Assembly (NCBI GenBank): GCA_028288585.1
Contig: JAQBNL010000025.1
Span: 1-64,000 of the forward strand
Source of the DNA: Chitinophagaceae bacterium
GTDB lineage: Bacteria > Bacteroidota > Bacteroidia > Chitinophagales > Chitinophagaceae
DNA: 64,000 nt
Direction of reading: 5' to 3'
Positions 828-18,221 of this stretch are shown here, one piece after another. A program made the translations under genes and the position numbers. The first letter of the stretch is position 1. Each line of letters begins with the position of its first letter. Under the pieces are notes generated by a model. It did no database searches, was not told where the DNA came from, and worked only from the letters and a program-made list of their open reading frames with translations.

Positions 828-857
828 AAAAAATTGGGCCGCATAGAAATACAGCCC
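828..857 (-). terminator. Intrinsic terminator, cassette A
   Basis: On the minus strand a 9-bp stem GGGCUGUAU/AUGCGGCCC with a UUCU loop (836-857) is followed by a six-U run (828-833). It is nearly identical to the hairpins at 5282-5303 and 5504-5525. Two positions pair only as U.G wobbles on the minus strand and would be C.A mismatches on the plus strand. This identifies minus as the functional strand. Confidence 0.8.
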
Positions 858-986
858 GTTACCAAAACTAACTGCTTATGAGAAAACCTTACTAAACCTT
901 CTTTTGCTTTTATATTGAGCTTGCATCGCAAACTGTGATCTTAAAATGTTTTTGTTATTCACATTATAAAGCTACGCTGCCGGTTT
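828..986 (-). ncRNA. Putative small RNA or attenuated leader, cassette A
   Basis: Minus-strand cassette. LytTR-type box at 1024-1053, then a promoter-like CACCTCTG (993-1000) followed by AAAAATAA, then about 155 nt without a convincing ORF, then the terminator at 828-857. The last 50 nt, including TTTTCTCATAAGCAGTT before the hairpin, match cassette B. The start near 986 is inferred from the -7-like element. Because the aldo/keto reductase starts 78 nt past the U-run, the transcript could instead be an attenuated leader of that gene. This entry also accounts for most of the 361-bp gap at 751-1111. Confidence 0.5.
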
Positions 987-1023
987 ATTTTTCAGAGGTG
1001 TAATACGCCTGTTTGAGTTTAAC

Positions 1024-1053
1024 TGTCGATGAACAGGCAAAACCTGTCGGCGG
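1024..1053 (-). promoter_or_regulatory. LytTR-type direct-repeat box A
   Basis: Two 9-bp repeats in plus-strand reading, TGTCGATGA (1024-1032) and TGTCGGCGG (1045-1053), are separated by the 12-bp spacer ACAGGCAAAACC (21-bp period). Two 9-bp repeats with 12-13 bp between them is the known architecture of LytTR-domain binding sites. The same box occurs at 2713, 5418 and 5643. Binding by the LytTR regulator at 5811-6506 is inference. Confidence 0.6.
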
Positions 1054-1111
1054 AGATTAAAAACCGGCAGTATACAGAACAATACCGGATAAAGTTTCGG
1101 GAACTTAATTA

Positions 1112-2128
1112 TTACTTAACAGGCGCTTCTTCGGAGATCAGTTTTTCAGCTTTTAGGTCTGCCCAAAAGTCTGCGGGGATCTTTACTTTCATTGATCCAA
1201 CATCTTCCGTTATTTGTTGCGCTGTTCTTGCACCGCAAAGAACGGCAGCAGATACATCCGGCATTGCCGCAAATTGTAAAGCAGCCGTTCTCAGATCCAC
1301 ATCATACGCATTGGCTATGGCGGCAAGGTGATCTCTTTTCGCAATAAATTCATTGGGCATTTCGCGGCCATAATTATACCGGTTACTCCCGGAGATAAAG
1401 CCGGCATTTAATGCAGAGCCCATTACAAGCCGGATATTCTTTTTTCTTACCGCGGGAAAGATATTTTTTAATGCATACTCATGATCAATTAATGAATATT
1501 GCGAAGCCAGCAAAAAAATATCAGGATCGGCGACTTCCATTGTAGCCAATATAGGTTCGGGCCTGTTAACACCAAGTCCCCAGGCTTTTATCAAACCTTC
1601 TTCACGCATACGGGTGAGCTCAGGAAAAGCGCCTTGTGTAGCTATTTCAAAATGCCCCAGCCATGCACCCTCAAGATATTTATTGTCGGGAGACAGGTCG
1701 TGAACAAAAACAATATCCAGGCTATCTATACCCAAACGCTGCAGACTGTCTTCAATGGAACGGCGCACGGCAGCAGCCGAATAATTAAACTCAACCATGT
1801 TTGGCGAACCGGCCAATGGAAAAAGATTTGATCTGATTGCTTTTTTTGATGCCTTCAGCAGCTTGCCTACTTTAGATGAAATAACATATTCTGACCTTTT
1901 TTGACTGTGAAGGAACTGTCCGAAGCGGCGTTCTGCCAAACCTAAACCATACCAGGGCGAAACATCGTAATAACGGACACCTGCGTCCCAGGCGGCTTCT
2001 AAAGTTTGCTGTGCTTCAGCATCAGTAACGGCAGAAAATTCGTTGCCAATTGGCACACCACCCAAACCAAAATGGTAGGGCAGCCGGTAATGGCCGGAAG
2101 TTGTTGATGCTGTTTTTTCCTGTTTCAT
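1112..2128 (-). CDS. Aldo/keto reductase (D-threo-aldose 1-dehydrogenase-like)
   Basis: A 338-residue aldo/keto reductase resembling the D-threo-aldose 1-dehydrogenase / pyridoxal 4-dehydrogenase group. That group oxidises sugars such as L-fucose to lactones with NAD(P)+. Visible marks are YYDVSPWYGLGLAERRFG near residues 53-70 (catalytic Asp and Tyr), the Lys in SSKVGKLL, and the His in DIVFVHDL. The C-terminal cofactor-loop region (SAAVLCGARTAQQI) is intact. No signal peptide, so cytoplasmic. It is followed by cassette A and another aldo/keto reductase, and is preceded by osmC only 65 bp away on the same strand, so osmC and this gene could be co-transcribed. The exact substrate is unknown. 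Confidence 0.88.
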   Translation of the reverse strand: MKQEKTASTTSGHYRLPYHFGLGGVPIGNEFSAVTDAEAQQTLEAAWDAGVRYYDVSPWYGLGLAERRFGQFLHSQKRSEYVISSKVGKLLKASKKAIRSNLFPLAGSPNMVEFNYSAAAVRRSIEDSLQRLGIDSLDIVFVHDLSPDNKYLEGAWLGHFEIATQGAFPELTRMREEGLIKAWGLGVNRPEPILATMEVADPDIFLLASQYSLIDHEYALKNIFPAVRKKNIRLVMGSALNAGFISGSNRYNYGREMPNEFIAKRDHLAAIANAYDVDLRTAALQFAAMPDVSAAVLCGARTAQQITEDVGSMKVKIPADFWADLKAEKLISEEAPVK

Positions 2129-2193
2129 ACTATTGCTGTTTTACATGTATTATTTATATAACAAAATTTATTCTCACTAAACGGAGACCTTTT

Positions 2194-2643
2194 TTAGAGG
2201 CCAGTCTCATTCGCCTCTGTTTTACTCTCTCTGGAAATAAATGTGCGGAGTTCAATATCATTCTCTAAAATTTTTGAAATGGGGCAATGCTTTGCAACTT
2301 CCTGCAACCGTAATTTTTGTTCTTCATCAACCGGGCTAAGAAATATTATTTGCCTGTCAATGATGGTAATAATTTTTTCATCTTTTGTTTCCTGGTAATA
2401 ATTAACTTTTACTGCCATCTGCGGAATATCCCAGCCCTTGTTATCAACAAACATTCGCAAAGTGATCAGTGTGCATGATGCAAGCGATGAAAGCAAAAGT
2501 GTGTAAGGATCAGGGCCCAGGTCTTTTCCTCCTGACGTTACAGGCTCATCGGCAATAAATTTTCCACTTCGCCATTCTATAGTGCATTGATATTTTTCCT
2601 TGCCGATGATCCCGTGAACGGGTTTTTCAAATTTGTATTCCAT
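2194..2643 (-). CDS. OsmC family peroxidase-like protein
   Basis: A 149-residue OsmC/Ohr-family protein. Family members reduce organic hydroperoxides through two cysteines. One is in the LASCTLITLRMF helix (about residue 57) and the other in HCPISKIL (about residue 120). Both are present at the expected spacing, so it should be catalytically competent. The Gly/Pro loop LGPDPYTLLLSSLASC is typical of the OsmC subclass (YhfA-like) rather than Ohr. Cytoplasmic. The start ATG at 2643 is supported by a -7 element TACTTTTG at 2677-2684 and a LytTR-type box just upstream, so it is a probable member of the local two-component regulon. Confidence 0.9.
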   Translation of the reverse strand: MEYKFEKPVHGIIGKEKYQCTIEWRSGKFIADEPVTSGGKDLGPDPYTLLLSSLASCTLITLRMFVDNKGWDIPQMAVKVNYYQETKDEKIITIIDRQIIFLSPVDEEQKLRLQEVAKHCPISKILENDIELRTFISRESKTEANETGL

Positions 2644-2676
2644 ACTATTTTTTTTGTTTTAAAACTTAGTTGTATC

Positions 2677-2742
2677 CAAAAGTATCCAGGCGCAACATCC
2701 CAGTGGTTTCGGAATCGATGACGAGGCAAGAACTGTCGATGA
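2677..2742 (-). promoter_or_regulatory. osmC promoter with LytTR-type box D
   Basis: Minus-strand -7 element TACTTTTG (2677-2684) matches the Bacteroidota consensus TAnnTTTG. No good -33 element is seen. Instead, 28 bp upstream lies a 9-12-9 direct repeat: plus-strand repeats AATCGATGA (2713-2721) and TGTCGATGA (2734-2742) with spacer CGAGGCAAGAAC. A missing -33 element next to an activator-type site suggests activator dependence. Confidence 0.6.
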
Positions 2743-2835
2743 GAGGAAAATTTTGTATCGGCACCCATCAGCGTATTGCAAGAAGTAGCACAGGTTTACA
2801 GGGGGTAGTAAATTATAAAAGCATTACCTAAAAGA

Positions 2836-5031
2836 TCAGGATATATCTTCCAGGTATTCTTTAGCCTCCTGAAAAACCTGCCGGCAAATTTTATTGACCG
2901 CCATTATTTTTTCCTGCACGTTAGTATTTTCTTTTTCAATACCGGCATTATTTTCAATATTGTCCAGGTAAGGATCCAGTTTTTCTGTAAGCCCCATAAA
3001 TGAAACAGAGGTTTTCAGGTTGTGTGCTATCTGTGATGCTTCTTCATAATTTTTTTTAGCAAACGCATCCTGCATGGCTTCCAGGTCAGCCGGTGTTTGT
3101 TGCAGGAATTGCTCTATCATATTTACTTCGAATACAGTGTTACCACCGGATATTTCTTTGAGATAACCGAGGTTCAGATATTCCGCAGTTTTACCAGCGG
3201 TATTATTTTCATTCTTTTTCCCCGCTGAACCACTGCTGTTTTGTAATATGCCATTGATTATTTTGAACAATTCATTTTCCCGGATGGGCTTTGAAATATA
3301 TTCATTCATTCCATAGCTTAAACATTTCTCTCTTTCTCCTGCCATTGCATGCGCCGTCATAGCAATAATGGGAATATTATTATTAAGTTCATTCCTGATC
3401 TTTTTTGTGGCCATGTATCCATCCATCAGCGGCATCTGTATATCCATTAATACCAGGCTGTAATTTTTTTGCTCCAATGCATCGATAACTTCCTGTCCAT
3501 TATTCACAATATCAAAATCAAGATCCCAGCTTGCCAGTAAGTGTTTCATCAGGTTTTGATTCATGGCATTATCCTCTGCTACCAGTATCTTAATATTTTT
3601 TGTGTTTAATTGTATCTCTTCTTCGGGTATAAATTTATCTCCGTTCAGATCTTTTGAGACCTTATAAGGAATGATAAAAATAAATTCAGTTCCCCCGTTT
3701 GTTTTACTGCTTACACTGATCGTTCCGTTTTGTAATTCTACCAGCTGCTTAACAATAGACAACCCAAGGCCCGTGCCTCCGTATTTACGGGTTGTATCTG
3801 TATCAGCCTGTTGAAACCTGTCAAATATGGTTTCTATTTTATTAGCCGGGATACCAATGCCGGTATCTTTAACAGAAAAAGAAATATCAATTGCCTCTTC
3901 CTTTTTCTTATTGGCTGTTACATTTATATGGATGCTGCCGGTATTGGTAAACTTTACAGAATTATTTACAAGGTTCACCAATATTTGTGTGAGGCGGATG
4001 GCATCGCCAATTAATATATCGGGTATCTGCTCTTCTACATTTACAGTAAGATGGAGATTCTTTTGCTGGATTTTTTCTCCAAACATTGTTTGTACTGAGT
4101 GCAGCAATCCACGCAAACTAAAAGAGTTTGATTCAATACGCATCATGCCGGCTTCTATCTTAGAAAAATCAAGTACGTCATTTATAATGGTCAGTAAATT
4201 TTCACCGGAATTCTGGATGGATCTTACAAACTCCTTTTCCTTTTCATTTAATGGTTCTTTCTGTAACAAATTTGTAAAACCAAGAATTGCATTCATCGGC
4301 GTTCGGATCTCATGGCTCATGTTTGCCATAAAATTTTCTTTCATAAGAGCAGCTTCCCGTACTTTCTTTTCTGATTCATTTAATTGATCATACAACTGTT
4401 GTTGCCGCTTAACTTTTTTGGTGATATACCAAAAAGTGAACATGCATGCTAACCCGGCGGTGACGGCCAGGAAAATTCCCCACTCTTTTGCACTGTGCCC
4501 GCTCTTATCAGCATCAACAGCCAATTGTGTAAGATATCTTTGCCGTGGTATGCTTAATGAATCGATAACATCCACAATTTCCTCCATTACGTACTTTTTG
4601 CGGTTCTTGTACATCTCTTCAGCTGCGGGCTGGCCTTTCGTAAAAAGGGCGGTGAGAATATTCTCGCTGAACTTCAGTTTATCTTCTATTAACGAATCCA
4701 GGAGTTGTACAAGTTGTTTGGTACTGTCAGTTAGCAAAAGAGGATTTAACTTAGAAAGCGATTCGGTTACATTTTTTTCTTTTTGCCTTATACGGCCAAG
4801 ATACACAGAATCCTCACTAATAACCGTGCGGTGTATCTGGCTTTCAATGTAAAGCAGATCTGTTTGTAATTTTTTTGCCTCCCCGATTATCTGGAATTCG
4901 TTGATCAGTGATTCATTACCGTGGATGAGATTATTGATATTCCGGTTGGAGTTGTATTGCAGGAATACAACCAGCATAATGGTGGCAATAAAAATGCCGA
5001 GTAAATAAACCATGAACCTTTTGTTATGCAT
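2836..5031 (-). CDS. Hybrid sensor histidine kinase with receiver and HPt domains
   Basis: A 731-residue membrane-bound hybrid kinase. In order: TM helix (about 7-24), a periplasmic helical sensor region (about 25-180), a second TM helix (about 184-203), a coiled linker, HisKA with the H-box [20 protein letters not shown], HATPase with N box ([12 protein letters not shown]) and G boxes ([15 protein letters not shown]), a receiver with ILVAEDN and the phospho-Asp in [13 protein letters not shown], and a C-terminal HPt domain with [11 protein letters not shown]. All phosphorelay residues are present. The start overlaps by 8 bp the stop of a small membrane-protein gene, implying one operon. The LytTR regulator gene upstream on the same strand is the likely output, but this is inferred from proximity. 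Confidence 0.93.
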
Positions 5032-5269
5032 TGGTGTCAGGTTTTATTGTCTGTATTTTTTTAGTTTCTAAGTTACTGCTTTTAGAAGTGCTGTTCATGA
5101 AATTAAAGTATAACCTGAAAAGAATTACAATAGAAAATGCAGTAAGTATCACCAGCAGGATAATAATGATCTTTTGCGCATGGTGTTCCATTGCATACAA
5201 TGAGTAATACGTAAAAAGAATAATAGCAACTGTATTCAGAATAAATGATATCGTAAATTTTATTTTCAT
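5024..5269 (-). CDS. Small two-helix membrane protein upstream of hybrid kinase
   Basis: An 81-residue protein with two predicted membrane helices (about residues 6-25 and 32-53) separated by the short charged loop MEHHAQK, and a polar Ser/Lys/Thr tail. I do not recognise a family. It overlaps the kinase start by 8 bp (translational coupling), so it may be a membrane partner of the kinase. Its ATG lies only 5-6 bp after the U-run of the cassette B terminator. Transcription arriving from the B promoter must pass that hairpin to express this gene and the kinase. Confidence 0.65.
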   Translation of the reverse strand: MKIKFTISFILNTVAIILFTYYSLYAMEHHAQKIIIILLVILTAFSIVILFRLYFNFMNSTSKSSNLETKKIQTIKPDTNA

Positions 5270-5274
5270 AGATT

Positions 5275-5303
5275 AAAAAGAGGGCCGCATAGAAATGCAG
5301 CCC
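5275..5303 (-). terminator. Terminator/attenuator hairpin, cassette B
   Basis: Minus-strand stem GGGCUGCAU/AUGCGGCCC with UUCU loop (5282-5303), followed by UCUUUUU (5275-5281). It lies immediately before the ATG of the small membrane protein at 5269, so it can act as an attenuator of the kinase operon. It also occupies the ribosome-binding region. Confidence 0.75.
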
Positions 5304-5377
5304 GTAAACTAAACCAACTGCTTATGAGAAAACTGATTTTATTTTTTTTGGGATATATTATTTATCATCTTTAATTA
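5275..5377 (-). ncRNA. Putative small RNA or attenuated leader, cassette B
   Basis: Minus-strand cassette with box at 5418-5447, promoter-like CACCTTTA (5383-5390) 27 bp downstream of the box, about 100 nt with no conserved ORF, and the terminator at 5275-5303. It is a diverged tandem copy of cassette C (222-bp offset between hairpins). The box, the CACCTTTACAAAATAATT segment and the hairpin are the best conserved parts. The 5' end is inferred. It may be a leader of the kinase operon rather than a free RNA. Confidence 0.5.
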
Positions 5378-5417
5378 TTTTGTAAAGGTGGATTAGAAAA
5401 TCATGAGCCTTCTGTAA

Positions 5418-5447
5418 AAACGGCAAACAGGCAAAAAGTGTCGTTGA
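5418..5447 (-). promoter_or_regulatory. LytTR-type direct-repeat box B
   Basis: Plus-strand repeats AAACGGCAA (5418-5426) and TGTCGTTGA (5439-5447) with spacer ACAGGCAAAAAG (21-bp period). The repeat nearest the promoter is the more degenerate one, as in box C. It lies 27 bp upstream of the -7-like element. Confidence 0.55.
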
Positions 5448-5496
5448 AAAGAATTACCTGCTGTGTGGTCATCATACATTTAAGTTTAATTGATTT

Positions 5497-5525
5497 AAAA
5501 AAGGGGCCGCATAGAAATGCAGCCC
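5497..5525 (-). terminator. Intrinsic terminator, cassette C
   Basis: Same 9-bp stem and UUCU loop as cassette B (5504-5525), followed by C and a six-U run (5497-5502). No gene lies between it and the next LytTR-type box, so here it ends a free-standing transcript. Confidence 0.8.
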
Positions 5526-5601
5526 GTTACCCTAAAACTAAACTGCCATGAAAAAAACTGTTTTTATATATGCGGATATATTCTTTATTATCTTTTAATT
5601 A
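5497..5601 (-). ncRNA. Putative small RNA, cassette C
   Basis: The clearest small-RNA candidate of the three cassettes: box at 5643-5672, -7-like CACCTTTA at 5607-5614 (28 bp from the box, the same spacing as in the osmC promoter), roughly 100 nt, then a strong terminator and no downstream gene of its own. It lies directly 3' of the LytTR response-regulator gene. The start site is inferred. Confidence 0.55.
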
Positions 5602-5642
5602 TTTTGTAAAGGTGGGTTAGAAAAATCAGTAGCTTTTTGTAA

Positions 5643-5672
5643 AAACGGTTAACGGGCAAAAGATGTCGGTGA
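5643..5672 (-). promoter_or_regulatory. LytTR-type direct-repeat box C
   Basis: Plus-strand repeats AAACGGTTA (5643-5651) and TGTCGGTGA (5664-5672), spacer ACGGGCAAAAGA, 21-bp period. A further degenerate half-site TGTCAATTA follows at 5684-5692. Confidence 0.55.
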
Positions 5673-5741
5673 AAACAATTTGATGTCAATTACATCGAAA
5701 AAAAAATCTTAAAAAGTAAGGAGATGGAGAAGCAATTTTTT

Positions 5742-5810: not shown

Positions 5811-6506
5811 TCAAAAAATATTCAATCTTTTGTTTAAGATCTTGCGGTAAGCATCTGCTACAGGGATGGTTTTATTATTAATGACAATAACTCCTTCTTC
5901 AATTTTTTCTATCTTATTAAGCGCAACAATATAAGAGCGGTGTACGCGAAGGAATTTATTAGGAGGTAATTTTTCTTCAACATTTTTTAAGGTAGTATGT
6001 ATCGCATGAAATTTTTGTTGGGTAAATACTTTTACATAATCCCCCATGGCTTCCATAAAAAGAATGTCTTCAATTAGTAAACGTTTTAGTACCCCGTTAT
6101 CTCTTATAAAAACAAATTCTGTTTCTTCAACTGAAACATCTGTTTTATTACTGTTATATATCTCGGTAGCTTTTTCAATTGCCTGCAAAAAGCGTGGAAG
6201 TGTGACAGGCTTTACAATGTAATCCGCCACTTTCAATTCAAAGGCATCCACTGCATATTCCGTTTTTGATGTGGTAAAAATGATGATTGGTTTTTTATCT
6301 ACAAGGTTACGTGTTAGTTCTATTCCTGTCATGCCGGGCATTTCAATATCAAGAAATAACAGATCTACCGCCAGGGAATTCATGAGATTATAGGCTTCCA
6401 ACCCACTGGAACATTCGCCAACAATTGTTAACTCTTCTACCTGTGAGGCCAATTGTTTCATGGCTGTACGGGCCATTTTATTGTCATCGATGATCAGGCA
6501 GTTCAT
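5811..6506 (-). CDS. LytTR family response regulator
   Basis: A 231-residue LytR/AlgR-type regulator. The N-terminal receiver (about 1-120) has the acidic pair in LIIDDNK, the phospho-Asp in LLFLDIEMPGMTG (about residue 55), Thr in IIFTTSK and Lys in DYIVKPV. The C-terminal LytTR DNA-binding domain (about 130-231) has FIRDNGVLKRLLIEDILFMEAMGDYVKVFT and the signature FLRVHRSYIVALNKIE. LytTR proteins bind two 9-bp direct repeats 12-13 bp apart. Four such repeats occur in this window, three of them just downstream on the same strand and near the kinase operon. Probable output of the hybrid kinase at 2836-5031. A consensus promoter lies at 6557-6587. Confidence 0.95.
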   Translation of the reverse strand: MNCLIIDDNKMARTAMKQLASQVEELTIVGECSSGLEAYNLMNSLAVDLLFLDIEMPGMTGIELTRNLVDKKPIIIFTTSKTEYAVDAFELKVADYIVKPVTLPRFLQAIEKATEIYNSNKTDVSVEETEFVFIRDNGVLKRLLIEDILFMEAMGDYVKVFTQQKFHAIHTTLKNVEEKLPPNKFLRVHRSYIVALNKIEKIEEGVIVINNKTIPVADAYRKILNKRLNIF

Positions 6507-6694: not shown

Positions 6695-7996
6695 TCATTT
6701 TACATAAAAAGGAATGTTAGCCGTAGCTACCTTATTGTATCCATCACTTATGTATAAGAACAAGCGATAAGCACCTTCTTTTGCAGGTGTTTTCAAAATG
6801 GAATTGTTTAAGCTTTCAACAGTTACCGATCCCGGTATTTCAACGGGCCGTGATTCCCGGTCACCCCCATTTTTAAGGTCAGTGCTTTCAGGCAAAAGCT
6901 CCCAACGTATGGCCAATTTATCTTTATCCGGATCATTTGCAAATATGGCTACCGGGTAATTTTTATTTTCTTCCAGGTAAATGATATCAGTTGCTTTTTT
7001 ATTATTCAATAATACAGAATCCACATGTGGCGCACGGTCTTTTGGCCATTTGCCTGTCCATAAATATTGCATTACGTCAACAACTTCTGATTCTTCTCCT
7101 TTCTCTGTAAAAAGCCCATACCAGGTAGGTGTTCTTTCCTGCTTTTGACCCCATAAAAACACGTATGAACCTATACAGTGATTATCCTGTTTTATAGATA
7201 CCTCATACCTGCTCTTATACACTGCGGCTTTTTGACTGCTGGTTTCTTCTATGGATGCTTTCCAGGGAGTTTGCATACTTTCCCAATGGCCTGTTGGGCC
7301 CCATTCAGTTACCATGTATGGACCTTCCCATCCGGCAGAACGCAATTTTTGCGGTACACCGGCCAACCCACCATATTCCTGTATTGAAAGTAAATCAAGT
7401 TGGGGGCAACGTGATTTAATGTAATCAATTTCTCTTTTATTTATTCCGGCCAACATTGTTGTTACCAGGTGATTGGGATCTTCCTCGTGAATCATTTTTG
7501 TTATATCATTTACAGCATCCCAAACCTTTGGATTTTTATATTCAAGGTTAAGCTCATTGCCTATGCCCCATATTAACAGCGCCGGATAATTTTTGTATTT
7601 ACGAACTTCGAGGCGCAGCTTTTCCAACTGTTGTTTCACTGCAACTGTATCATTGTAATTAAAGCCATGACGCTCCCGGGCTACGTTTAAACCCATGGTT
7701 ACTGTTAATCCCAGTTGATTTGCTTTATTTAATACTTCTTCTCCATCCCGGGTATTCCAGGTACGGATAGAATTTCCTCCATACTTAGCCAAACGGTCGC
7801 TATAGCTTGTACCACCAGCTCCTTTTATAAAATAAGGCTTGCCATCTCTTAATAATATAAAACCATTATTTTTTGCAACGATTTTTGTTTTTACAGCACT
7901 ATCAATATTTTGTGTATAAGCAGTATTTAATTCGGATAAAAAAAGGATGCTAATTATACTTGATAATTTAAATAAAATCACGGTTATTTTTTTCAT
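6695..7996 (-). CDS. Clan GH-A glycoside hydrolase (GH2-like TIM barrel)
   Basis: A 433-residue secreted hydrolase. I chose the ATG at 7996 because MKKITVILFKLSSIISILFL is a signal peptide and an upstream start would overlap the GH3 gene. The barrel has the acid/base Glu in LLIWGIGNELNL (about residue 150) and the nucleophile Glu in MVTEWGPTG (about residue 230), the two-Glu arrangement of clan GH-A. The C-terminal 80 residues look like an immunoglobulin-like beta domain. Overall it resembles GH2 catalytic barrels without the GH2 N-terminal sandwich. An alternative is a beta-1,3-glucanase family such as GH158, which sits in laminarin loci of Bacteroides. It follows GH3 by 10 bp as the last gene of the operon. 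Confidence 0.75.
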   Translation of the reverse strand: MKKITVILFKLSSIISILFLSELNTAYTQNIDSAVKTKIVAKNNGFILLRDGKPYFIKGAGGTSYSDRLAKYGGNSIRTWNTRDGEEVLNKANQLGLTVTMGLNVARERHGFNYNDTVAVKQQLEKLRLEVRKYKNYPALLIWGIGNELNLEYKNPKVWDAVNDITKMIHEEDPNHLVTTMLAGINKREIDYIKSRCPQLDLLSIQEYGGLAGVPQKLRSAGWEGPYMVTEWGPTGHWESMQTPWKASIEETSSQKAAVYKSRYEVSIKQDNHCIGSYVFLWGQKQERTPTWYGLFTEKGEESEVVDVMQYLWTGKWPKDRAPHVDSVLLNNKKATDIIYLEENKNYPVAIFANDPDKDKLAIRWELLPESTDLKNGGDRESRPVEIPGSVTVESLNNSILKTPAKEGAYRLFLYISDGYNKVATANIPFYVK

Positions 7997-8006
7997 AGGT
8001 GCTATA

Positions 8007-10172
8007 TTATAAAGTAACTTTTCCTGTAAGTTTGATGGCTTTTGAAGATCCCCCAACAAGAATATCAAATACTCCGGGTTCTAATACCCATTCATTTTTT
8101 ATATCATTATAATATTGAAATGCATCTGCATTTAGTGTAAGTATTATTGTTTTTTGCTCACCTGGTTGCAGCATTATTTTTTCAAAAGATTTTAATTCTT
8201 TTTCCGGTCTTGGCAAAGTTGATTTTTCCTGTTTCACATAAACCTGTGCCACTTCAGCACCGGTAACGCTTCCGCTATTTTTTATATTAAATGTTACAGT
8301 AACTTTTTTCTTACTTCCCTGAACTGTTAGGTTGCTATATTCAAAAGTGGTATAAGAAAGCCCGTGACCAAATGCAAATTGTGGTTCTACTTTATAGGTA
8401 TCAAAATAGCGATAGCCAACATAAATATCATCAGTATAATATAATTGCTGTAAGTCTTTTGATTTCATGCCAATCTTTTCAGCAGGTGCATCTTCCAATG
8501 TTTTTGGAAACGTCATTGGTAATTTTCCTGATGGATTAACCTGCCCGAAAATTATTTTAGCTAATGCATTTCCGCCTTCCATGCCGGGATACCATGCCTG
8601 CAAAATTGCCGGCGCATTATTCACCCATCGGGTCATATCAATTGGTCCCCCGCCTATTAATACTACAATAGTTTTAGGATTTGCTTTTATCACAGCTTTT
8701 ATTAATTCATCCTGCCCGAAGGGCATGTACATATCAGGCTTGTCAGTATCCTCTGCGTCATAAGCATTGTCACTCCAAACGTTATAATTATATCCATGTG
8801 TCCAACCGCCTACAACTATTGCCACATCTGCTTTTGAAGCTGCATCTGCTGCCTGTGTAATTAATGTATTATCTGCTGTTGCTCCTCTTTCAATTCTATA
8901 TCCCTGGTTATACGTTATATTAATTTTATTGCCTCCTATACTTTTTAAACCTTGCAACGGAGTTACTTCATAAAAGGCTTTAGCCTGCGAGCTTCCGCCA
9001 CCCATTGCCTGATTTCTTTCTGCATTAAACCCAATTACCGCAATTGATTTTATGGATGATGACAGCGGCAAAATCCTGTTATCATTTTTAAGCAAAACAA
9101 TCCCTTCTTCTGCTATTTTAAGAGCAGTTTGCTGATGCGCTTTTGTATTATACTCACCTTTTTTACGCACTCCGTCAATCATATTTGTTTTGTACATCAC
9201 ATACAAAATCCTTCTTACTTTATCATCAAGTATTTTTTCATCAAGCTTACCATTTCTTATAAGAGTAACTACTGTATCCCCCATAAAAAATTTACTATAA
9301 TTGGGGTTAGGCAGCATACCCAGATCTGTTCCCATTTCCAAATCGCAACCATTCCAAAATGCTTCAAGTGTATTGTGAACTGCTCCCCAATCGCTAATTA
9401 CAGCGCCTTTAAATCCCCATTCTTTTTTTAATATCTGTGTAACCAGGTAATAGTTTTGTGTTGCCCACTGCCCTCTAAACTTATTGTATGAACCCATTAA
9501 AGTATTTACATTTCCTTCTGTAACAGCGGCTTTAAAACCCGGCAGATAAATTTCACGCAATGCACGCTCACTCATATTTACATTCACCGTGTTTCGTTTT
9601 GTTTCTATATTGTTGGCAGCATAATGCTTTACACATGCAGATATACCCTGGTCCTGCACACCTTTAATATAGCCTACTGTCATTTTTGAAATAAGGTATG
9701 GGTCTTCACTTTGGTACTCGAAATTCCGCCCGTTTAATGGTGAGCGAATAATATTAATGCCTGGTCCAAGAATAACATCTTTGCCACGAAAGTTAGCTTC
9801 ACTGCCAAGAACAGCGCCGAAGGCATAACCTAATTTAGGATTCCATGTTGCGGCAAGACAAACCCCCGTAGGGAGATAGGTTCCGGAATCATAAACATTG
9901 TTAAGGCCCGACCAGCCACGGCCATGCTCACGCCTTACGGCATGAGGCCCATCAGAAGTTACGAGTTCAGGAATTCCTAAACGAGGCACACCGCCTGATG
10001 TAAAAGATGAACTTGCGTGTATCATATGCACCTTTTCTTCCAGCGTCATTTTTTTAATTAATGCATTGATCTTTGCTTCTGTAGATGCATTAGTTTGTGC
10101 ATTTGCAGTTAATGCTAAAACTGTTGCAGTAATTAATAAAAGTATCCTTATAGGTGCTGATTTGTATACCAT
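8007..10172 (-). CDS. Glycoside hydrolase family 3 beta-glucosidase
   Basis: A 721-residue GH3 enzyme with signal peptide (cleavage after ...TANAQ). The N-terminal barrel contains VTSDGPHAVRREHGRGW, KHYAANN and the nucleophile Asp in AVISDWGA (about residue 260). The alpha/beta sandwich has GGGSSQAKAF and VVVGGWTHGYNYN. The C-terminal fibronectin type III-like domain starts near YFDTYKVEPQFAFGHGLSYTTF. GH3 enzymes remove terminal beta-glucose, so here it should finish oligosaccharides made by the GH16 and GH5 enzymes in the periplasm. It starts 9 bp after the GH5 gene ends. Confidence 0.93.
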   Translation of the reverse strand: MVYKSAPIRILLLITATVLALTANAQTNASTEAKINALIKKMTLEEKVHMIHASSSFTSGGVPRLGIPELVTSDGPHAVRREHGRGWSGLNNVYDSGTYLPTGVCLAATWNPKLGYAFGAVLGSEANFRGKDVILGPGINIIRSPLNGRNFEYQSEDPYLISKMTVGYIKGVQDQGISACVKHYAANNIETKRNTVNVNMSERALREIYLPGFKAAVTEGNVNTLMGSYNKFRGQWATQNYYLVTQILKKEWGFKGAVISDWGAVHNTLEAFWNGCDLEMGTDLGMLPNPNYSKFFMGDTVVTLIRNGKLDEKILDDKVRRILYVMYKTNMIDGVRKKGEYNTKAHQQTALKIAEEGIVLLKNDNRILPLSSSIKSIAVIGFNAERNQAMGGGSSQAKAFYEVTPLQGLKSIGGNKINITYNQGYRIERGATADNTLITQAADAASKADVAIVVGGWTHGYNYNVWSDNAYDAEDTDKPDMYMPFGQDELIKAVIKANPKTIVVLIGGGPIDMTRWVNNAPAILQAWYPGMEGGNALAKIIFGQVNPSGKLPMTFPKTLEDAPAEKIGMKSKDLQQLYYTDDIYVGYRYFDTYKVEPQFAFGHGLSYTTFEYSNLTVQGSKKKVTVTFNIKNSGSVTGAEVAQVYVKQEKSTLPRPEKELKSFEKIMLQPGEQKTIILTLNADAFQYYNDIKNEWVLEPGVFDILVGGSSKAIKLTGKVTL

Positions 10173-10181
10173 AATGATGAA

Positions 10182-11936
10182 TTATTTAAGACTGATGAAT
10201 TGAAAATAATTTAGTTTGAACTCACCTTTTATTATATGAACTTTAAAGCGGTTAATACCTTTAGTTAGAAGAATATTTTTTACAGTTATTATTTTCCAAT
10301 CCTTATCATTTGCGCCTTGCATTAATGAAATATTTTCTACCAGGGTAACGCCATTTATTGTTAACTGTATTTCACCAGCCTTACCTGATGCAGTGCGGAT
10401 ATTTAAATTAAATGTCCCTGTTTTAGTAACATTGATTGTGTATTGCAGCCATTCACCATCTTCTATCCAGCCTACATTAAATCCGTTGGTTATAGAATCA
10501 GTACAGGCTTCAATATCCACTCCGTCATTTCTATATTGCCCGCCACGGTTTCCCTGGGTTCTTTTACCTGTTGATACATGGTAGTTTGCAGAGTCATTAT
10601 CAAGATATGCAAAACGGTTTCTTCCTAAATCATAATCAACAGCAAATACAATTGCGTTTGATTTAATTACATGTTGCTTAAAAGGGATTGTTTCAAAAGA
10701 ATGAACCTGCCGGAACATAGCATCAACAACATCTTTATGAAAAACATTATTCTCTGCTTTTATATCTTCCGTTAACTGCATCAAGGTATTAAAAGCATCC
10801 GCTTGCGAAGGTTTTGGAGATTGCCCTTTCCAATAACTTATCAATTGTTTATAGCCATTGTTTTGTTTAACCTGCAAAGGATTATTTAAACCAAATTTTT
10901 TTAGTGGCCACCATGCCCAGCCAATTTTATTTTTTTCAAATAATTCGATCGCATCAGTAAACCATACATTTGAGTTTTCTCCTGACTCTCCGCACCATAC
11001 GGGTACATTGTATTTATCGCGGATATCTAAAAATTTTTGTATTGACTGCTGATCATTATTGTTCCAGTATTTATGAAAACTTACAACCATGTTGTTATCC
11101 CATAAAGGAAATATGCCGTTATAATTATTTGCCCAGCAATTTGCTTCAATAAAAATTATATGCTTTTTATCTACCTGTCTTATTGCTTCAGAAATATCCG
11201 TTAGCAATTTTTTAAGAGGAGCATTTTCTGTTTCGCCGCAACCATTTTTATCAGAAGCGTTTTGAAAACCCCAGTTAGTTTCATTAATAAGATCATAGCC
11301 GCCTATCCATTCTTCGTTTGCATAGCGCTCAGCTAATTTTTTCCAAAGAGTGATTGTTTTTTGTTTATTCATTTCACTTTGCCAAAGAGATGGTTTAGAT
11401 GTATCCCTGTCTGAGATGGCGATATCATTTCCTTGCCCCCCGGGTGCAGCATGCAGATCGAGAATGAGATAAATTTTATTTGCTTTACACCAGCTTAACA
11501 AACTATCCGTTAATTGAAATCCTTTGCTTAACCATGTATCCTTACCTGGCACAGGCTCTTGCTCTGTTGGAAGTGTAAACAGGTTATAGTGCATAGGTAA
11601 CCTTATCGAATTAAATCCCCATGCAGCCAAAGAATCTATGTCAGCTTTACGGGTGTGATTAGATAGCCATGCATTATAAAATGTATTTGTTTTTTCTTCA
11701 CCAATCAAATCTATGATCTTAGATTTTACAGCTCTTTGATTTGCAGCAATTCCACCTAACTGTAACATATAAGGTTCCTGCAGCATCCATCCGCCAAGAC
11801 CCATCCCCCGGAGAATTATTTCTTTGCCACTTCCATTTACAATAGCTTTTCCATTTACCTTAAGAAAGCCTTGCGAATATGTTGTATACTTCGAAAAAAA
11901 CAGGAGAGAGATTAGTAATAATCTTTTTAAAAACAT
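10182..11936 (-). CDS. GH5 glycoside hydrolase with C-terminal CBM6-like domain
   Basis: 584 residues with signal peptide (MFLKRLLLISLLFFSKYTTYSQ). The GH5 barrel (about 25-350) shows GFNSIRLPMHYNLF, LDLHAAPGGQ, the acid/base Glu in YDLINETNWG, and the nucleophile in VPVWCGESGENS. This resembles exo-beta-1,3-glucanase/cellulase-type GH5. The last 145 residues are a CBM6-type beta-sandwich: VDIEACTD, FNVGWIEDGEWLQYTINV, FNLNIRTASGKAG, and a closing FKLNYFQF. The binding module suggests attachment to insoluble or long-chain beta-glucan. It is co-directional with GH3 (9-bp gap). Confidence 0.88.
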   Translation of the reverse strand: MFLKRLLLISLLFFSKYTTYSQGFLKVNGKAIVNGSGKEIILRGMGLGGWMLQEPYMLQLGGIAANQRAVKSKIIDLIGEEKTNTFYNAWLSNHTRKADIDSLAAWGFNSIRLPMHYNLFTLPTEQEPVPGKDTWLSKGFQLTDSLLSWCKANKIYLILDLHAAPGGQGNDIAISDRDTSKPSLWQSEMNKQKTITLWKKLAERYANEEWIGGYDLINETNWGFQNASDKNGCGETENAPLKKLLTDISEAIRQVDKKHIIFIEANCWANNYNGIFPLWDNNMVVSFHKYWNNNDQQSIQKFLDIRDKYNVPVWCGESGENSNVWFTDAIELFEKNKIGWAWWPLKKFGLNNPLQVKQNNGYKQLISYWKGQSPKPSQADAFNTLMQLTEDIKAENNVFHKDVVDAMFRQVHSFETIPFKQHVIKSNAIVFAVDYDLGRNRFAYLDNDSANYHVSTGKRTQGNRGGQYRNDGVDIEACTDSITNGFNVGWIEDGEWLQYTINVTKTGTFNLNIRTASGKAGEIQLTINGVTLVENISLMQGANDKDWKIITVKNILLTKGINRFKVHIIKGEFKLNYFQFISLK

Positions 11937-12003
11937 AATAGAAATAAGATTAAAGTTGAAATAAAATATGAGTGCTTGTTTTTTATGTGAAAAAAATCAC
12001 TGC

Positions 12004-13239
12004 TTAAATGTTTTTATTTTTTTTAAAATATTGTAAAAGGTTATTTATTTTTTCATCACGATATACAGCAATTTTATGCGTACGTAATAAATAAAATGAG
12101 GTGGTATCACTTCCGGAAAGTTGAAATGTAATGGCCCGTGAGGGCTGCAGAGGCATATGACAATCTATACAATTTGCTTTCATAGTATTTGCCATTGCTT
12201 CATCCATTTTTAAAGAGCTATGATCAGTATCCTTATGGCAGCTTAAACATTTTTTAGAATATTCACTAACATCTGTACCTGCATTAGTATGCGGATTATG
12301 ACAGCTTAAGCAATCCATAGTTTTACTTTGCAAAAAGCATTTGCTCTGCGATAACAATTGATATTGGTTACCATGTACATCAAAATCAGAAGTAGTATTA
12401 TTATGAGAAGCCCATGGTAAAAAGAAATTTGCAAGTGTATCTCCCATTTTAAATTTAAAAGCAGAAATCTCTTTCTTTTTATCATTACCGGAATGACAAA
12501 CAGCGCAGACATCTAATTTTTGTTGCCTTGATAATGTATTGGAAGTAACAATATATTTTGCCTGTTTCACTTCAGGATAAGTAAGATGATAATTTACATG
12601 ATTGGTTGAAGGCCCATGACATCTTTCGCAATCGATCCCATTAATTAAAGAATTTTTATCTAATACTTCTTCTATCACCTTATTGCTTGCATTTAATTTT
12701 CCTTCAATGTATGAGCTATGGCATTCGAAGCAGCCTATCCCAATAGACCGTGTAAAATTTACAACGGAGGGATAGGCAGGGCTGGAAGCCCAGGTGTGTA
12801 CTGTAGTATAATATGAAATGGGTAACTCAAAAGTTTTATTACCCTGCCAGTATAAAAAAGTTTGTGCATGTTTTATGCCGAAAGTAATATCCATGCGATG
12901 TATTTCTGCCTCCTTTCCATTTACATATAAAACCTGGAACAGGCCACTGTCCCTGTGTTCCATAACAATTTGGGTTGCAGAATTAACTACAAAAGTATTT
13001 TGGCCATGAGTAAAACTTCCGAGTATATTTTTGTCTGAGGCTGTTTTAGTGCTGTTGAAATGAGAGGTAGCAACATAAGAATCATAAATTGATTTATGAC
13101 ACTGCCTGCAACTGGCAGAACCTATAAATATATCTCCTCTTGGGTCATTATTTTTTTCCACGCTATTAATACACCTTGATAGAATCATAATTAAACCACT
13201 GATCGTGAATATTAATATGAAAGATTTTTTATTTCTCAT
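12004..13239 (-). CDS. Seven-haem cytochrome c lipoprotein
   Basis: A 411-residue lipoprotein (lipobox ILSRC near residue 23) with seven CXXCH haem sites: CRQCH, CFECH, CERCH, CAVCH, CLSCH, CLSCH and CIDCH. The opening SASCRQCHKSIYDSYVATSHF is typical of cytochrome c554-like multihaem families. It should sit in the periplasm facing outer or inner membrane and carry electrons. No CuxAB-, MauG- or nitrite-reductase-specific motif was recognised. It lies inside the beta-glucan operon (67 bp before GH5, 51 bp after GH16), where such a protein is not expected. Redox partner and purpose are unknown. Confidence 0.88.
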   Translation of the reverse strand: MRNKKSFILIFTISGLIMILSRCINSVEKNNDPRGDIFIGSASCRQCHKSIYDSYVATSHFNSTKTASDKNILGSFTHGQNTFVVNSATQIVMEHRDSGLFQVLYVNGKEAEIHRMDITFGIKHAQTFLYWQGNKTFELPISYYTTVHTWASSPAYPSVVNFTRSIGIGCFECHSSYIEGKLNASNKVIEEVLDKNSLINGIDCERCHGPSTNHVNYHLTYPEVKQAKYIVTSNTLSRQQKLDVCAVCHSGNDKKKEISAFKFKMGDTLANFFLPWASHNNTTSDFDVHGNQYQLLSQSKCFLQSKTMDCLSCHNPHTNAGTDVSEYSKKCLSCHKDTDHSSLKMDEAMANTMKANCIDCHMPLQPSRAITFQLSGSDTTSFYLLRTHKIAVYRDEKINNLLQYFKKNKNI

Positions 13240-13290
13240 ATTCAGATCTACAGATTATTATTCAGCAATAAAGCAGGTACTATAATTGCT

Positions 13291-14496
13291 TTATTGAAAA
13301 ACTCTTATATAATCAACTATCATCCTTTGCGGGAAAGTTGTTGTTGCATCAGGGCTGCCAGGCCAGTCGCCTCCCACTGCTACATTGAAAATGAAAAAGA
13401 AAGGAGCATTAAAAGGGTAGGGGCTGGAGCCTACATCGGTTTTATTTACAGTAAGGAAAAGATTATTATCAACATACAATTTTAGCTGGTCAAGTTTCCA
13501 TTCCATAGAGAAAACATGGAATTGATCATAGAAGGAGCTGCCACTAAGCGTATAGAAATTTCCCTTTGAGCCATGTGTTGCTCCGGAAGCGCCATAATGT
13601 AAAGTGCTGTATGATTTTGATGGCTCCTGTCCTAAAAGTTCCATAATATCTATCTCTCCGCAGGCAGGCCATCCGGCGGTATTAATATTATTTCCAAGCA
13701 TCCATAATGCGGGCCATATTCCTTTTCCTCTTGGAAGTTTAGCACGGATATCAACCTTGCCATACGTGAATGATTTTTTATTTTGAGTAGTTAACCGGCT
13801 GGAAGAATAATTAAAACCGCCGATTGATTCCTTACGTGCTTCTATGATTAAGTTTCCATTAGATACAAACACATTTTTTGCACTGTTAGTATAATATTCC
13901 AATTCGTGATTGCCCCATCCGCCGGAACCATTGCCAATCTCGTAATTCCATGTACTCCCATTTAATGCTGTTCCCGAAAATTCATCATTCCACACAAGTG
14001 TATAACCCGGGTAAGTAAGTGGTGTAGTGAAGCCGGTGTTATCAGTTGTAAAGTTTATTCCATCTTCTGTAATAATAGTGCCTTTAGCCGAAGCAACGCC
14101 AATTGTACAACCTTTGGGATTGCTAAGCTGAACGGTGAATTCAAGATTATCCTGTCGTGTGTCAGAAGCATCTCCTTTAATTTGAACGGTAACTTCTGCA
14201 ATGGATTGATTGGCCGGAATACTAATTGTTCCGGATGCAGCTGTATAATCCCTGGGAGCAGTGGCTGTACCATCTGTTACTACATAATCAACAGTTACGG
14301 GAACAGTAGTTGTTTTATCTAATGTAATATTAAAATGCATGGTGGCTGTTGTGGTTGTTCTTGCCAGTGAAGCATTTTCAATTTTTACTACAGGCACAAC
14401 AGCAGCCGGGGTTGGAGAGGTATTATCTTTCTTAGTACATGAAAGAGCAGTTAAATTTAATACGGCCATCAATAGACCGCTGAATTTTTGCAACAT
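13291..14496 (-). CDS. GH16 laminarinase-like lipoprotein with Calx-beta domain
   Basis: 401-residue lipoprotein (lipobox ALSC, residues 17-20). Residues about 35-145 form a Calx-beta domain (DYVVTDGTATAPRDYTAASGTISIP). Residues about 160-401 are GH16, with YTLVWNDEFSG at the start, WPALWMLGNN, and the catalytic signature GEIDIMELLG (nucleophile Glu, helper Asp, acid/base Glu). The EIDIME form with the extra Met is characteristic of bacterial laminarinases (endo-beta-1,3-glucanases) rather than kappa-carrageenases or agarases. As a lipoprotein of a Sus-type locus it probably acts on the cell surface, cutting long glucan for SusCD import. Confidence 0.92.
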   Translation of the reverse strand: MLQKFSGLLMAVLNLTALSCTKKDNTSPTPAAVVPVVKIENASLARTTTTATMHFNITLDKTTTVPVTVDYVVTDGTATAPRDYTAASGTISIPANQSIAEVTVQIKGDASDTRQDNLEFTVQLSNPKGCTIGVASAKGTIITEDGINFTTDNTGFTTPLTYPGYTLVWNDEFSGTALNGSTWNYEIGNGSGGWGNHELEYYTNSAKNVFVSNGNLIIEARKESIGGFNYSSSRLTTQNKKSFTYGKVDIRAKLPRGKGIWPALWMLGNNINTAGWPACGEIDIMELLGQEPSKSYSTLHYGASGATHGSKGNFYTLSGSSFYDQFHVFSMEWKLDQLKLYVDNNLFLTVNKTDVGSSPYPFNAPFFFIFNVAVGGDWPGSPDATTTFPQRMIVDYIRVFQ

Positions 14497-14569
14497 AGTA
14501 ATTATTTTTATGACGCTATTTTGGGCTAATGTATTTAGCTGTATTTATAAGAAGGGCATGAAATAAGAA

Positions 14570-14595
14570 AGCACAGGACATTACTGTCCCGTGCT
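14570..14595 (-). terminator. Intra-operon hairpin between surface lipoprotein and GH16
   Basis: Inverted repeat AGCACaGGAC/GTCCcGTGCT with a 6-nt loop, followed on the minus strand by TTCTTATTTC. It is a moderate intrinsic terminator or RNA-processing/stabilising hairpin, placed so as to lower expression of the enzyme genes relative to susC/susD and the binding proteins. Confidence 0.5.
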
Positions 14596-14630
14596 ATGAA
14601 AACCTTAGTTCTTCTTTAAAATTTTACAGA

Positions 14631-15560
14631 TCAATTTGCTTTAAGTTTTATATACCATGCATTGCCTGTTTCAGTACCTTGAACTCTCAGGTACAAACTA
14701 GTTGCTGTAATAGATAATATTTCATATTCTTTTAGCACAGCACCATAACCAATAAAGGTATCAGTACCGCCTAAAAGTATAGCTGTTTTAGTTGAAGCCG
14801 ATGATGCAATTCCTGAAGCGGATGGAAGAAATGAAAAAGAAGATGTTCCACCACTATAATTGTAACATGCCTCACCTCCTGCAGCAGGAATGCCCGGAAG
14901 ACCTCCTGCTAATGCACCTGTTTTAGTGAAAGCACCATCAGGCGTTGCAACAGTAAGGGTATAGCCGTTAGACGTTTTAGTGAATGTGTAAGTTGCAGTA
15001 TAGAAACAGTTGCAACAAGCAACTTTTTCATTAATGCCTGCAGCCCACCATTCAGGCGTTACTGAAGTTGTGCTCCATGGGCCAACACCAAAATGTGCAG
15101 GTATAGTTTTATCTACACTCCAGCTTTTTGAGCCCGCCCCTGTAAGATTAGAAACGATAGTTGCAGAAGGTGTAAAATTACTTTGAACCTGGATATCTTT
15201 TGTTACCGTTGTTGCTGTACCGCCTGCACCATATGCTACTACTGTTATCCTGTAAGTGTTCAACCCCAGGGTAGTATATTTGTTGGTAGCCTTTCCATTG
15301 GCAAGAAATAGAAGGCTTATACCATCAGCGGCATTATAATCTATTTTATAAGAGAGTACATTTTTACCAGTCACTGTAACCTCCACATCGCCTGATCCAT
15401 CGCCATTTGGATGTGTAGCATCTACGCCGATAATCTTAGTGCCGATAACAATGTCAGTTGGAGCAGTAAGACTTCCCATGCTGTAATCTGTTTTTTTGCA
15501 ACTATTGATTACCAGCAATAGTGTAAATACACCTAAGTAAAATTTTATATTCTGTATCAT
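14631..15560 (-). CDS. PKD-domain surface lipoprotein (putative glycan-binding protein)
   Basis: 309-residue lipoprotein (lipobox VINSC, about residues 16-20). An N-terminal PKD/Ig-like domain (about 35-125; VEVTVTGKNVLSYKIDY) is followed by a C-terminal domain (about 140-309) that I do not recognise. That domain contains WSVDKTIPAHFGVGPWS, a Cys-Cys-x-Cys cluster (ACCNCF) and several aromatic residues. Position after susC/susD and another PKD lipoprotein, and before GH16, is that of surface glycan-binding proteins in beta-glucan loci. It lies 12 bp after the preceding gene, so it is co-transcribed with it. Confidence 0.75.
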   Translation of the reverse strand: MIQNIKFYLGVFTLLLVINSCKKTDYSMGSLTAPTDIVIGTKIIGVDATHPNGDGSGDVEVTVTGKNVLSYKIDYNAADGISLLFLANGKATNKYTTLGLNTYRITVVAYGAGGTATTVTKDIQVQSNFTPSATIVSNLTGAGSKSWSVDKTIPAHFGVGPWSTTSVTPEWWAAGINEKVACCNCFYTATYTFTKTSNGYTLTVATPDGAFTKTGALAGGLPGIPAAGGEACYNYSGGTSSFSFLPSASGIASSASTKTAILLGGTDTFIGYGAVLKEYEILSITATSLYLRVQGTETGNAWYIKLKAN

Positions 15561-15572
15561 GATAAATATATT

Positions 15573-16676
15573 TTAATTGGTTTGTCTAAAATTGTCAACA
15601 TAAATAACCGCACCAGCACCATCCGCGCCATCATTAAAGCGCAAAACAAGTTGTCTGAATTTTTCGGTAGCAGGTATTGCTGCAATAGTGCCGAAATCAA
15701 ACACAAGTTCTTCCCACACGCCGGATGTAGTAAATGCTGTTTTAAGTACCGCAACACCATTGGCAAGACCCGAGACTGCAGATTCTAATTCTACATTGAG
15801 TTTTTTACCTATCAATGCAGGATCAGGATTATAAGCCAGTACTCTTATTTTTTTACCTGCTGCCATGTCAATCGGAATATTTAAAGGGCTATAAGTTCCG
15901 CTCCAGGATTCATAACCACGGGTGAACTTACCAACCTTTGCGCTCATGTTTAATCCTGATGGATTCGGGTTTGCAACAGTAGCGAATTGTTGGCCACCAC
16001 CAAAAGTGCCGAAAAAGTAATTGATAGTAGTTAAATCAAAAGTGATAGGAAGGCCAAACGGATCGTAAATAGTTACCGGCGTAATCTTCTCTGTTGTAGC
16101 AGCGCCACCGCTTAAGGCAACTACCCGTACATTGTAAATGCCTGCTGCTGCATAATCATGTGATACCTCGGCACCTGTAGCAAGAGGTGTACCTACCTCG
16201 TTAGCTACATCACCAAAATATACAAGGTAAGAAGCTGCATAAAGTGCTGTAGCTTTCACCTTTAAATTATGAATATTTGTAGTTGTAGTTACGGTTACAT
16301 TTTCAGGAGCTCTGTAAGTTAGCTGTAACGGATAGGTAGCTGTGGTTTCCGTTCCTGAAAGGCTTTTTGAAATAATTGTAACAGTATAACTTCCTTCAGG
16401 ATAAGCATGTGTGGCACTAAAGCCAGGGTTCACGTTAGCTTGTGATGCAGTACCTGTACCATGGCCAAACTTAACAACATAAGAAGATACACCCTCCCCG
16501 GTTGGTGTAATTTTTACATTACCGGAATTGTCATTGCTTATATCGAAAATTTTGCCGGGATTAGCTGAAGCGGCTGAGTTTAAAAAAGATGTATCACTAT
16601 TAATGCCTTCTTTTTGACATCCAATTGCGCCTACAATTAATGCTAGTAAGCTAAATATTATTATTTTTTTCTTCAT
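15573..16676 (-). CDS. PKD-domain surface glycan-binding lipoprotein
   Basis: 367-residue lipoprotein (lipobox GAIGC, about residues 16-20). It has two PKD-like domains (about 40-125 and 125-205; YVVKFGHGTG, YLVYFGDVAN) and a C-terminal jelly-roll region (about 215-367). The latter has TRGYESWSGTYSPLNIPIDMA and a closing VIYVDNFRQ, reminiscent of carbohydrate-binding modules. It follows susD by 11 bp. Gene order susC-susD-PKD lipoprotein matches surface glycan-binding proteins of laminarin loci. It probably captures beta-glucan at the cell surface. Specificity is inferred from the neighbouring GH16. Confidence 0.82.
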   Translation of the reverse strand: MKKKIIIFSLLALIVGAIGCQKEGINSDTSFLNSAASANPGKIFDISNDNSGNVKITPTGEGVSSYVVKFGHGTGTASQANVNPGFSATHAYPEGSYTVTIISKSLSGTETTATYPLQLTYRAPENVTVTTTTNIHNLKVKATALYAASYLVYFGDVANEVGTPLATGAEVSHDYAAAGIYNVRVVALSGGAATTEKITPVTIYDPFGLPITFDLTTINYFFGTFGGGQQFATVANPNPSGLNMSAKVGKFTRGYESWSGTYSPLNIPIDMAAGKKIRVLAYNPDPALIGKKLNVELESAVSGLANGVAVLKTAFTTSGVWEELVFDFGTIAAIPATEKFRQLVLRFNDGADGAGAVIYVDNFRQTN

Positions 16677-16687
16677 GATAGTTAGTT

Positions 16688-18202: not shown

Positions 18203-18221
18203 ATAAACTAAATTAATAAAT

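Follow-up and report, generated by a model that had tools for sequence, protein, structure and literature searches.

What do three similar cassettes beside a LytTR-type two-component system encode, and what would their products regulate? The cassettes, which we call A, B, and C, lie on the minus strand of a 64,000-nucleotide stretch of DNA from a Chitinophagaceae bacterium (GenBank assembly GCA_028288585.1, contig JAQBNL010000025.1, positions 1 to 64,000; hereafter the window). An earlier note on this DNA proposed that they specify a previously unannotated small RNA (sRNA) family, in three copies, controlled by the two-component system. Comparison with related genomes indicates that the cassettes belong to a large, apparently undescribed sRNA family of the Chitinophagaceae, whose members probably prevent the synthesis of nutrient receptors of the outer membrane in response to several different signals.

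A repeat search and a terminator scan of the window recovered the cassettes where the earlier note had placed them. Each contains, in order along the minus strand, a LytTR-type box, an element resembling a -7 promoter motif, a leader, a conserved stretch, a 9-bp hairpin with a UUCU loop, and a U-run. In cassette A, the box (1027-1049) is followed, 49 bp past its start, by the -7-like element CACCTCTG (993-1000); the predicted RNA (828-987) consists of a leader, a seed (866-886), a terminator (857-836), and a T-run. In B, the box lies at 5421-5443, the element CACCTTTA at 5383-5390 (53 bp), and the predicted RNA at 5275-5377, with its seed at 5312-5332 and its terminator at 5303-5282; the T-run stops 5 nt ahead of the ATG of a small-protein gene. 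Cassette C has its box at 5646-5668, CACCTTTA at 5607-5614 (54 bp), and a predicted RNA (5497-5601) with a divergent seed and a terminator at 5525-5504. The RNA ends, inferred from sequence, agree with those predicted before. The 3′ modules (829-887, 5275-5333, and 5497-5555) form the top direct-repeat family of the window, and the three hairpins (9 pairs, TTCT loop, T-run) head the terminator scan, which found 11 terminator-like sites versus 4.9 expected in shuffles. The conserved stretch, UUUUCUCAUAAGCAGUURGUUU in A and B, is largely unpaired; C carries the divergent UUUUUUUCAUGGCAGUUUAGUUUUAGG. Apart from some weak pairing in the seed of B, the folds consist of an unpaired 5′ seed and a Rho-independent terminator.

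The argument that pairing is maintained only on the minus strand also held. In cassette A, a C-G pair becomes U·G on this strand and would be A·C on the plus strand, and the U·G at stem position 5 in all three cassettes likewise breaks the plus-strand stem. Over 42 aligned relatives, the RNA-sense strand contains 22 G·U cells versus 2 A·C cells. Folding z-scores were modest: -0.72 (A), -2.63 (B), and -1.43 (C) for the minus strand, compared to 0.46, -1.59, and -1.16 for the plus strand. A plus-strand peptide (MRKL...) opposite the seed was rejected, as only its first residues agree in the matched regions.

The DNA of positions 5270-5700 matched 44 of 99 related genomes at E values up to 0.001: every one of the 20 genomes in the genus, 24 of the 40 remaining family members, and none of 39 outside the family. 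What the relatives have in common is the stretch and the hairpin, not the promoter. When the Chitinophagaceae were searched with a covariance model of the stretch plus hairpin (model R1), as the earlier note had proposed, 117 of 147 family genomes matched at E up to 0.001, with up to 12 copies per genome; the best E value was 1.1e-11 or better in 107 of these genomes and weaker than 1e-8 in 10. R1 matches A at 829-894 (76.8 bits), B at 5275-5340 (75.9 bits), and C at 5497-5564 (45.9 bits), and an additional class-1 copy in the same genome (G000:C96:6629-6695, minus strand; hereafter the C96 copy) raises the total from three to four. In a phylum sample, R1 matched 8 of 148 genomes, six from within the family plus two marginal matches in genomes outside it (G261 and G334); the G261 match was rejected as a protein-gene start without a hairpin. 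An exact-pattern scan of named genomes yielded at least 119 stretches. Among the 80 matches listed, the genomes belong to Chitinophagaceae genera (Niabella, Flavihumibacter, Sediminibacterium, Terrimonas, Ferruginibacter, Puia, and others) or bear broader Bacteroidetes labels, the exceptions being metagenome-assembled genomes labelled Williamsia (two loci) and Sphingobacterium (one).

The alignment (A1) comprises 42 of 63 reference copies; three seed matches that lack a hairpin (L067, L068, and L073) and one cut-off copy (L049) had been left out before the reference list was made. Over more than 20 nt, the unpaired sequence hardly varies among copies, in part by selection, since most loci were picked by seed match. 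Stem and promoter were not selected on. Of the stem cells in this alignment of related, not independent, copies, 95.8% are paired, and 68 are changed on both sides versus 15.8 in shuffles and 8-18 in slid versions. The existence of an sRNA family is well supported by stem covariation, spread, G·U strand bias, and the promoter elements described below. That it was previously unannotated fits an Rfam search, in which the cassettes reached no family at its gathering score, and searches of an open-access library, which turned up no paper on such RNAs in Chitinophagaceae.

For the promoter count, 14 of 204 seed matches were dropped on an automatic stem and T-run test (all but L125 show a hairpin by eye), and 188 of the remaining 190 copies had enough upstream sequence. 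A sigma-54-like element (score at least 11.5) lies upstream of 103 of the 188 copies versus 2 of 188 shuffled sequences. Scores in the genome of the window are 8.5 (A), 10.0 (B), and 8.0 (C), so that none of the three has the -24/-12 element of a sigma-54-dependent sRNA at this threshold; the C96 copy scores 11.5. A test based on absence of rpoN was dropped, since all 147 family genomes carry the gene. Twenty copies sit behind an hsp20 gene, whose stop codon is 6-35 nt ahead of the seed (one representative was confirmed as HSP20 in Pfam). As the regions upstream of these hsp20 genes score at least 9.5 in 20 of 20 cases (4 of 20 shuffles), they may be sigma-54-dependent too.

The genes around the copies also recur. 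A release factor 1 (RF1) gene is first or second upstream of 73 copies, including the C96 copy, and a VanZ-like gene lies opposite 76 copies (one representative of each was checked in Pfam). Of 98 copies in the sigma-54 class, 76 are followed downstream by a gene on the opposing strand, which argues that these copies are not leaders, and leader attenuation was set aside as a general function on this ground. Three copies have as a neighbour an ECF sigma gene whose leader is complementary; this lead was likewise set aside, since the loci are near-identical relatives whose conservation is not independent. Separately, the copies L151 and L211 lie 21-24 nt, and L311 closer, behind the stop codon of a short conserved protein ending ...EEREGGFFGS...

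How does the LytTR system fit in? The box (consensus CGACAnnTnTTGCCYnnTnnnCG) was found four times in the window by repeat search; since the pattern was written from these four sites, their exact match is by construction, and the 4 sites compare with 0.13 expected. The rest of the 3.3-Mb genome contains five matches only, each with 2 mismatches, and the reversed control gave 10 sites. With nothing but two-mismatch sites at control level elsewhere in the genome, the boxes appear to form a small regulon local to the LytTR gene. The fourth box (2716-2738, minus strand; 2721-2738 in the repeat search) falls outside the three-cassette set. It lies upstream of an OsmC-like gene (2194-2643, minus strand), and this osmC promoter has TACTTTTG at 54 bp. 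The CACCTYTR motif of the cassettes resembles a degenerate form of the Bacteroidetes -7 element, TAnnTTTG.

The response regulator gene (Response_reg and LytTR domains, 5811-6506, minus strand) adjoins the cassettes, upstream of which the box is repeated. Among 20 genomes of the genus, a single close LytTR orthologue was found (genome G003, 60% identity; the next best has 44%). Its locus is ordered as in cassette B. A box and, 54 bp on, a -7 element precede a divergent R1 match (31.7 bits, E 3.9e-6), after which come the terminator, the ATG of the small protein, and the kinase. The box-to-element spacing is 49-54 bp across A, B, C, osmC, and the G003 locus. Two-component control, as the earlier note had it, is plausible for A, B, and C on the strength of the boxes, the near-fixed spacing, and the G003 locus. 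Across the whole family, the main association is with sigma-54-like promoters, so LytTR control seems to have been added locally and not to define the family.

The other genes around the cassettes, all on the minus strand, encode a protein of 81 aa that matches nothing in Pfam and lies between cassette B and the kinase (5024-5269), the hybrid histidine kinase (HisKA, HATPase_c, Response_reg, and Hpt domains; 2836-5031), an aldo/keto reductase between the OsmC-like gene and cassette A (1112-2128), and a second aldo/keto reductase downstream of A that is cut by the contig start (1-750).

Following the precedent of FopS, an sRNA of Bacteroides described below, we compared the predicted pairing energy of the seed with gene start regions in 0.89 Mb of the same genome. 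For the class-1 seed, three SusC-like genes averaged -18.2 kcal/mol versus -11.5 kcal/mol for other genes (p 0.0026, beyond all 10 shuffles), and the seeds of B and C behaved alike (p 0.004). The mean difference for signal-peptide genes was below that of all 40 shuffled seeds, and 10 of the 20 best-pairing genes encode signal peptides versus 4.5 expected. We typed 24 large signal-peptide proteins by Pfam and then tested the receptors among them (TonB-dependent or carboxypeptidase-regulatory domains): 6 of 9 pair at -16 or lower, as do 36 of the 755 other genes (p 1.4e-6 by Fisher test and 0.008 by rank test), and none of 300 shuffled seeds did as well. In loci from other genomes, six receptor-like genes averaged -14.5 versus -10.1 (p 0.004, 0 of 100 shuffles), with only 2 of the 6 reaching -16, and in an earlier screen a receptor-like cluster ranked first of 36. 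Many receptors begin with ATGAGAAA, which is complementary to the seed, and the seed classes have in common a U-run with CAU at its end, complementary to AUGA. A search of the same genome for short words complementary to the seed ahead of genes gave a weak signal only, and a duplex screen over mixed loci gave only a slight excess over shuffled seeds.

Two predicted targets are in the window, both on the minus strand: the start of a SusC-like receptor gene (Plug, CarbopepD_reg_2, and TonB-dependent barrel; 18222-21338; -19.8 kcal/mol), about 12.5 kb from the cassettes, and a gene for a PKD-domain lipoprotein-like protein (15573-16676; -19.6 kcal/mol). They fall within an apparent glycan-use locus beside the cassettes (6695-24414) that also contains a GH3 enzyme and a Y_Y_Y/Reg_prop/GerE regulator, and an ORF neighbouring the SusC-like gene is presumably SusD-like.

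The explanation we favor, and hold to be reasonably probable, is that the cassettes encode FopS-like sRNAs that mask start codons and whose paralogues link receptor mRNAs to different inputs. Each cassette would be a stand-alone minus-strand gene for a trans-acting sRNA of the multicopy family. The LytTR regulator would bind the box and activate a promoter with its -7 element about 54 bp on; the product, judging from the comparison of relatives, would be an RNA of about 100-160 nt with an intrinsic terminator at its end and a largely unpaired conserved seed. This seed is predicted to pair across the AUG and 5′ untranslated region of mRNAs for SusC-like and other TonB-dependent receptors, blocking translation initiation, a step modelled on the action of FopS in Bacteroides thetaiotaomicron (PMC11697453). 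Paralogues that carry this seed elsewhere in the family stand behind sigma-54-like promoters or hsp20 genes, and different inputs would therefore act on a single set of targets. In the window, three copies would have come under the small LytTR regulon, which also has a box before osmC.

Several results weigh against this explanation. Among the nine receptors, three pair poorly (-5.0, -6.7, and -9.8), the proportion falls to 7 of 14 at -16 or lower when five further receptor fragments are added, and the nine-receptor test was framed after the top hits were known. In a rank test, signal-peptide genes taken together do not have significantly lower energies (p 0.22), and neither class-2 nor class-3 seeds (described below) prefer the three SusC-like genes (p 0.62 and 0.51). 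Three paralogues in genome G001 (L309, L312, and L316) keep UUAGUUUUGG and the hairpin, with the 5′ half of the seed changed and CAU lost. Kinship with FopS by score is also wanting: at a relaxed Rfam threshold, cassette C (5494-5558) aligns along the whole FopS model (RF04319) at 24.7 bits, compared to a gathering score of 56; the model matches neither the C96 copy nor a class-2 copy at E values up to 1; and it exceeds its cut-off in none of 39 chosen Chitinophagaceae genomes, one of them picked as R1-negative. The best score in these genomes is 36.4 bits (E 0.0015), and only such best hits carry weight, since nearly all 39 match at E up to 1.

Two further points of this kind concern location. 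The next gene is co-directional for 27 and opposing for 36 of 63 non-sigma-54 copies, and cassette B stops directly ahead of a start codon, which makes read-through control possible there. Both would suit cis-acting attenuators, in which the hairpins would terminate transcription conditionally in the leader of the small-protein/kinase operon (B and C) or of the aldo/keto reductase gene (A), with the conserved stretch as sensor or anti-terminator partner. All three cassettes are upstream of co-directional genes, the G003 counterpart of B also ends just ahead of the small-protein ATG, and the next gene is co-directional for 11 and opposing for 8 of 19 copies behind hsp20. We nonetheless regard attenuation as unlikely: sigma-54 copies mostly face an opposing gene, the seed is unchanged whatever lies downstream, and the folds show no alternative anti-terminator stem.

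We give a similarly low probability to the proposal that the stretch serves above all to bind a protein, such as an RbpB-like RRM protein, with base pairing secondary. The length of nearly invariant unpaired sequence, even if partly due to selection by seed match, would fit such a site, and RbpB binds FopS in B. thetaiotaomicron (PMC11697453). The genome of the window encodes a 97-aa RRM_1 protein (L282:16276-16569, plus strand), a possible RbpB counterpart whose presence also fits the FopS-like explanation favored above. Against the proposal, receptor starts pair better with the real seed than with any of 300 shuffled seeds, and the 5′ half of the stretch varies in the G001 paralogues. That the cassettes are a repeated terminator or mobile repeat without regulatory RNA function is very improbable: the copies are small, intergenic, and numerous in some genomes, but RF1 and VanZ-like neighbours recur over many genera, which argues for inheritance in place, and conserved unpaired sequence with positioned promoter elements is unexpected for a mere repeat.

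Relatives with other seeds also occur. A second, sRNA-like class, with seed CGGUUUUUCAUAGGAUAUUGGAU plus a hairpin, was detected by its own model (R2) in 108 of 147 family genomes, with up to 13 copies and 10 both-side stem cells versus 2.9. The genome of the window has class-2 copies at L294:14560-14620 (minus strand, contig C32), L358:2534-2595 (plus strand, C44), and G000:C86:11920-11978, the first two with TAnnTTTG just upstream of the seed. Tandem class-2 pairs 205-290 bp apart occur in several genomes of the genus (L353:2030-2094 and 2319-2383; L008; L009). A third class, with seed UUUUCAUAGGAUAAGGUUUAA plus a terminator, accounts for 8 of 10 loci fetched from sub-threshold FopS matches (L393, L394, L395, and L397-L401). 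In another genome, four sub-threshold FopS matches lie in a row about 200 bp apart (G160:C1:4555485-4556135), a possible tandem array of sRNA genes.

Among known systems, AgrA-RNAIII of Staphylococcus aureus is similar in arrangement, with a regulatory RNA under a response regulator of the LytTR type. Qrr, LhrC, and OmrA/B are sibling sRNAs with several copies and a common seed, Qrr together with sigma-54, and are likewise similar in arrangement. They belong to other phyla. PMC11697453 also names them. GibS of B. thetaiotaomicron (PMC7366714), a metabolic sRNA of the Bacteroidota, shares seed R1 (distinct from our model R1) with FopS and, unlike the cassettes, has two seed regions (PMC11697453).

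The closest known RNA is FopS itself. In 2025, this paralogous sRNA family was reported to control SusC-like receptor translation in gut Bacteroides: it has 14 members in B. thetaiotaomicron, combines a terminator with a 5′ seed that is unpaired, blocks SusC-like transporter translation near the start codon, and is antagonised by RbpB (PMC11697453). According to the same source, its conservation lies within the Bacteroidaceae and its promoters are canonical sigma-ABfr promoters. The cassettes differ in their seed sequence, in not passing the Rfam model, and in their sigma-54-like, hsp20-linked, or LytTR-linked promoters; class 1 is mostly sigma-54-like, and a strict TAnnTTTG precedes 8 of 31 class-2 copies. 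We therefore name them FopS-like and do not file them as FopS. When aligned to the FopS seed (R1′), C and class 2 fit best and class 1 and G003 less well, a ranking without a significance test. If the proposal is true, this multicopy counterpart in a large environmental family, with its nearly invariant seed and varied promoters, would turn translational control of SusC-like receptors by sRNAs into a general feature of Bacteroidota; the family would offer a comparative system for linking stress signals to nutrient uptake, and covariance models would become available for families absent from Rfam. Tentatively, and with the chances a little short of even, a FopS-like system that masks start codons may reach far wider in the Bacteroidota than the Bacteroidaceae, with at least three seed classes in the Chitinophagaceae and with sigma-54, hsp20-transcript, and LytTR inputs to class-1 paralogues of one seed, so that many stresses would meet at the synthesis of outer-membrane receptors. 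With FopS, the family shares multicopy paralogy, an unpaired seed with a U-run ending in CAU at its start, a terminator, and a 3′-end-derived member; start-codon pairing with SusC-like mRNAs, shown for FopS (PMC11697453), is predicted here for the class-1 seed.

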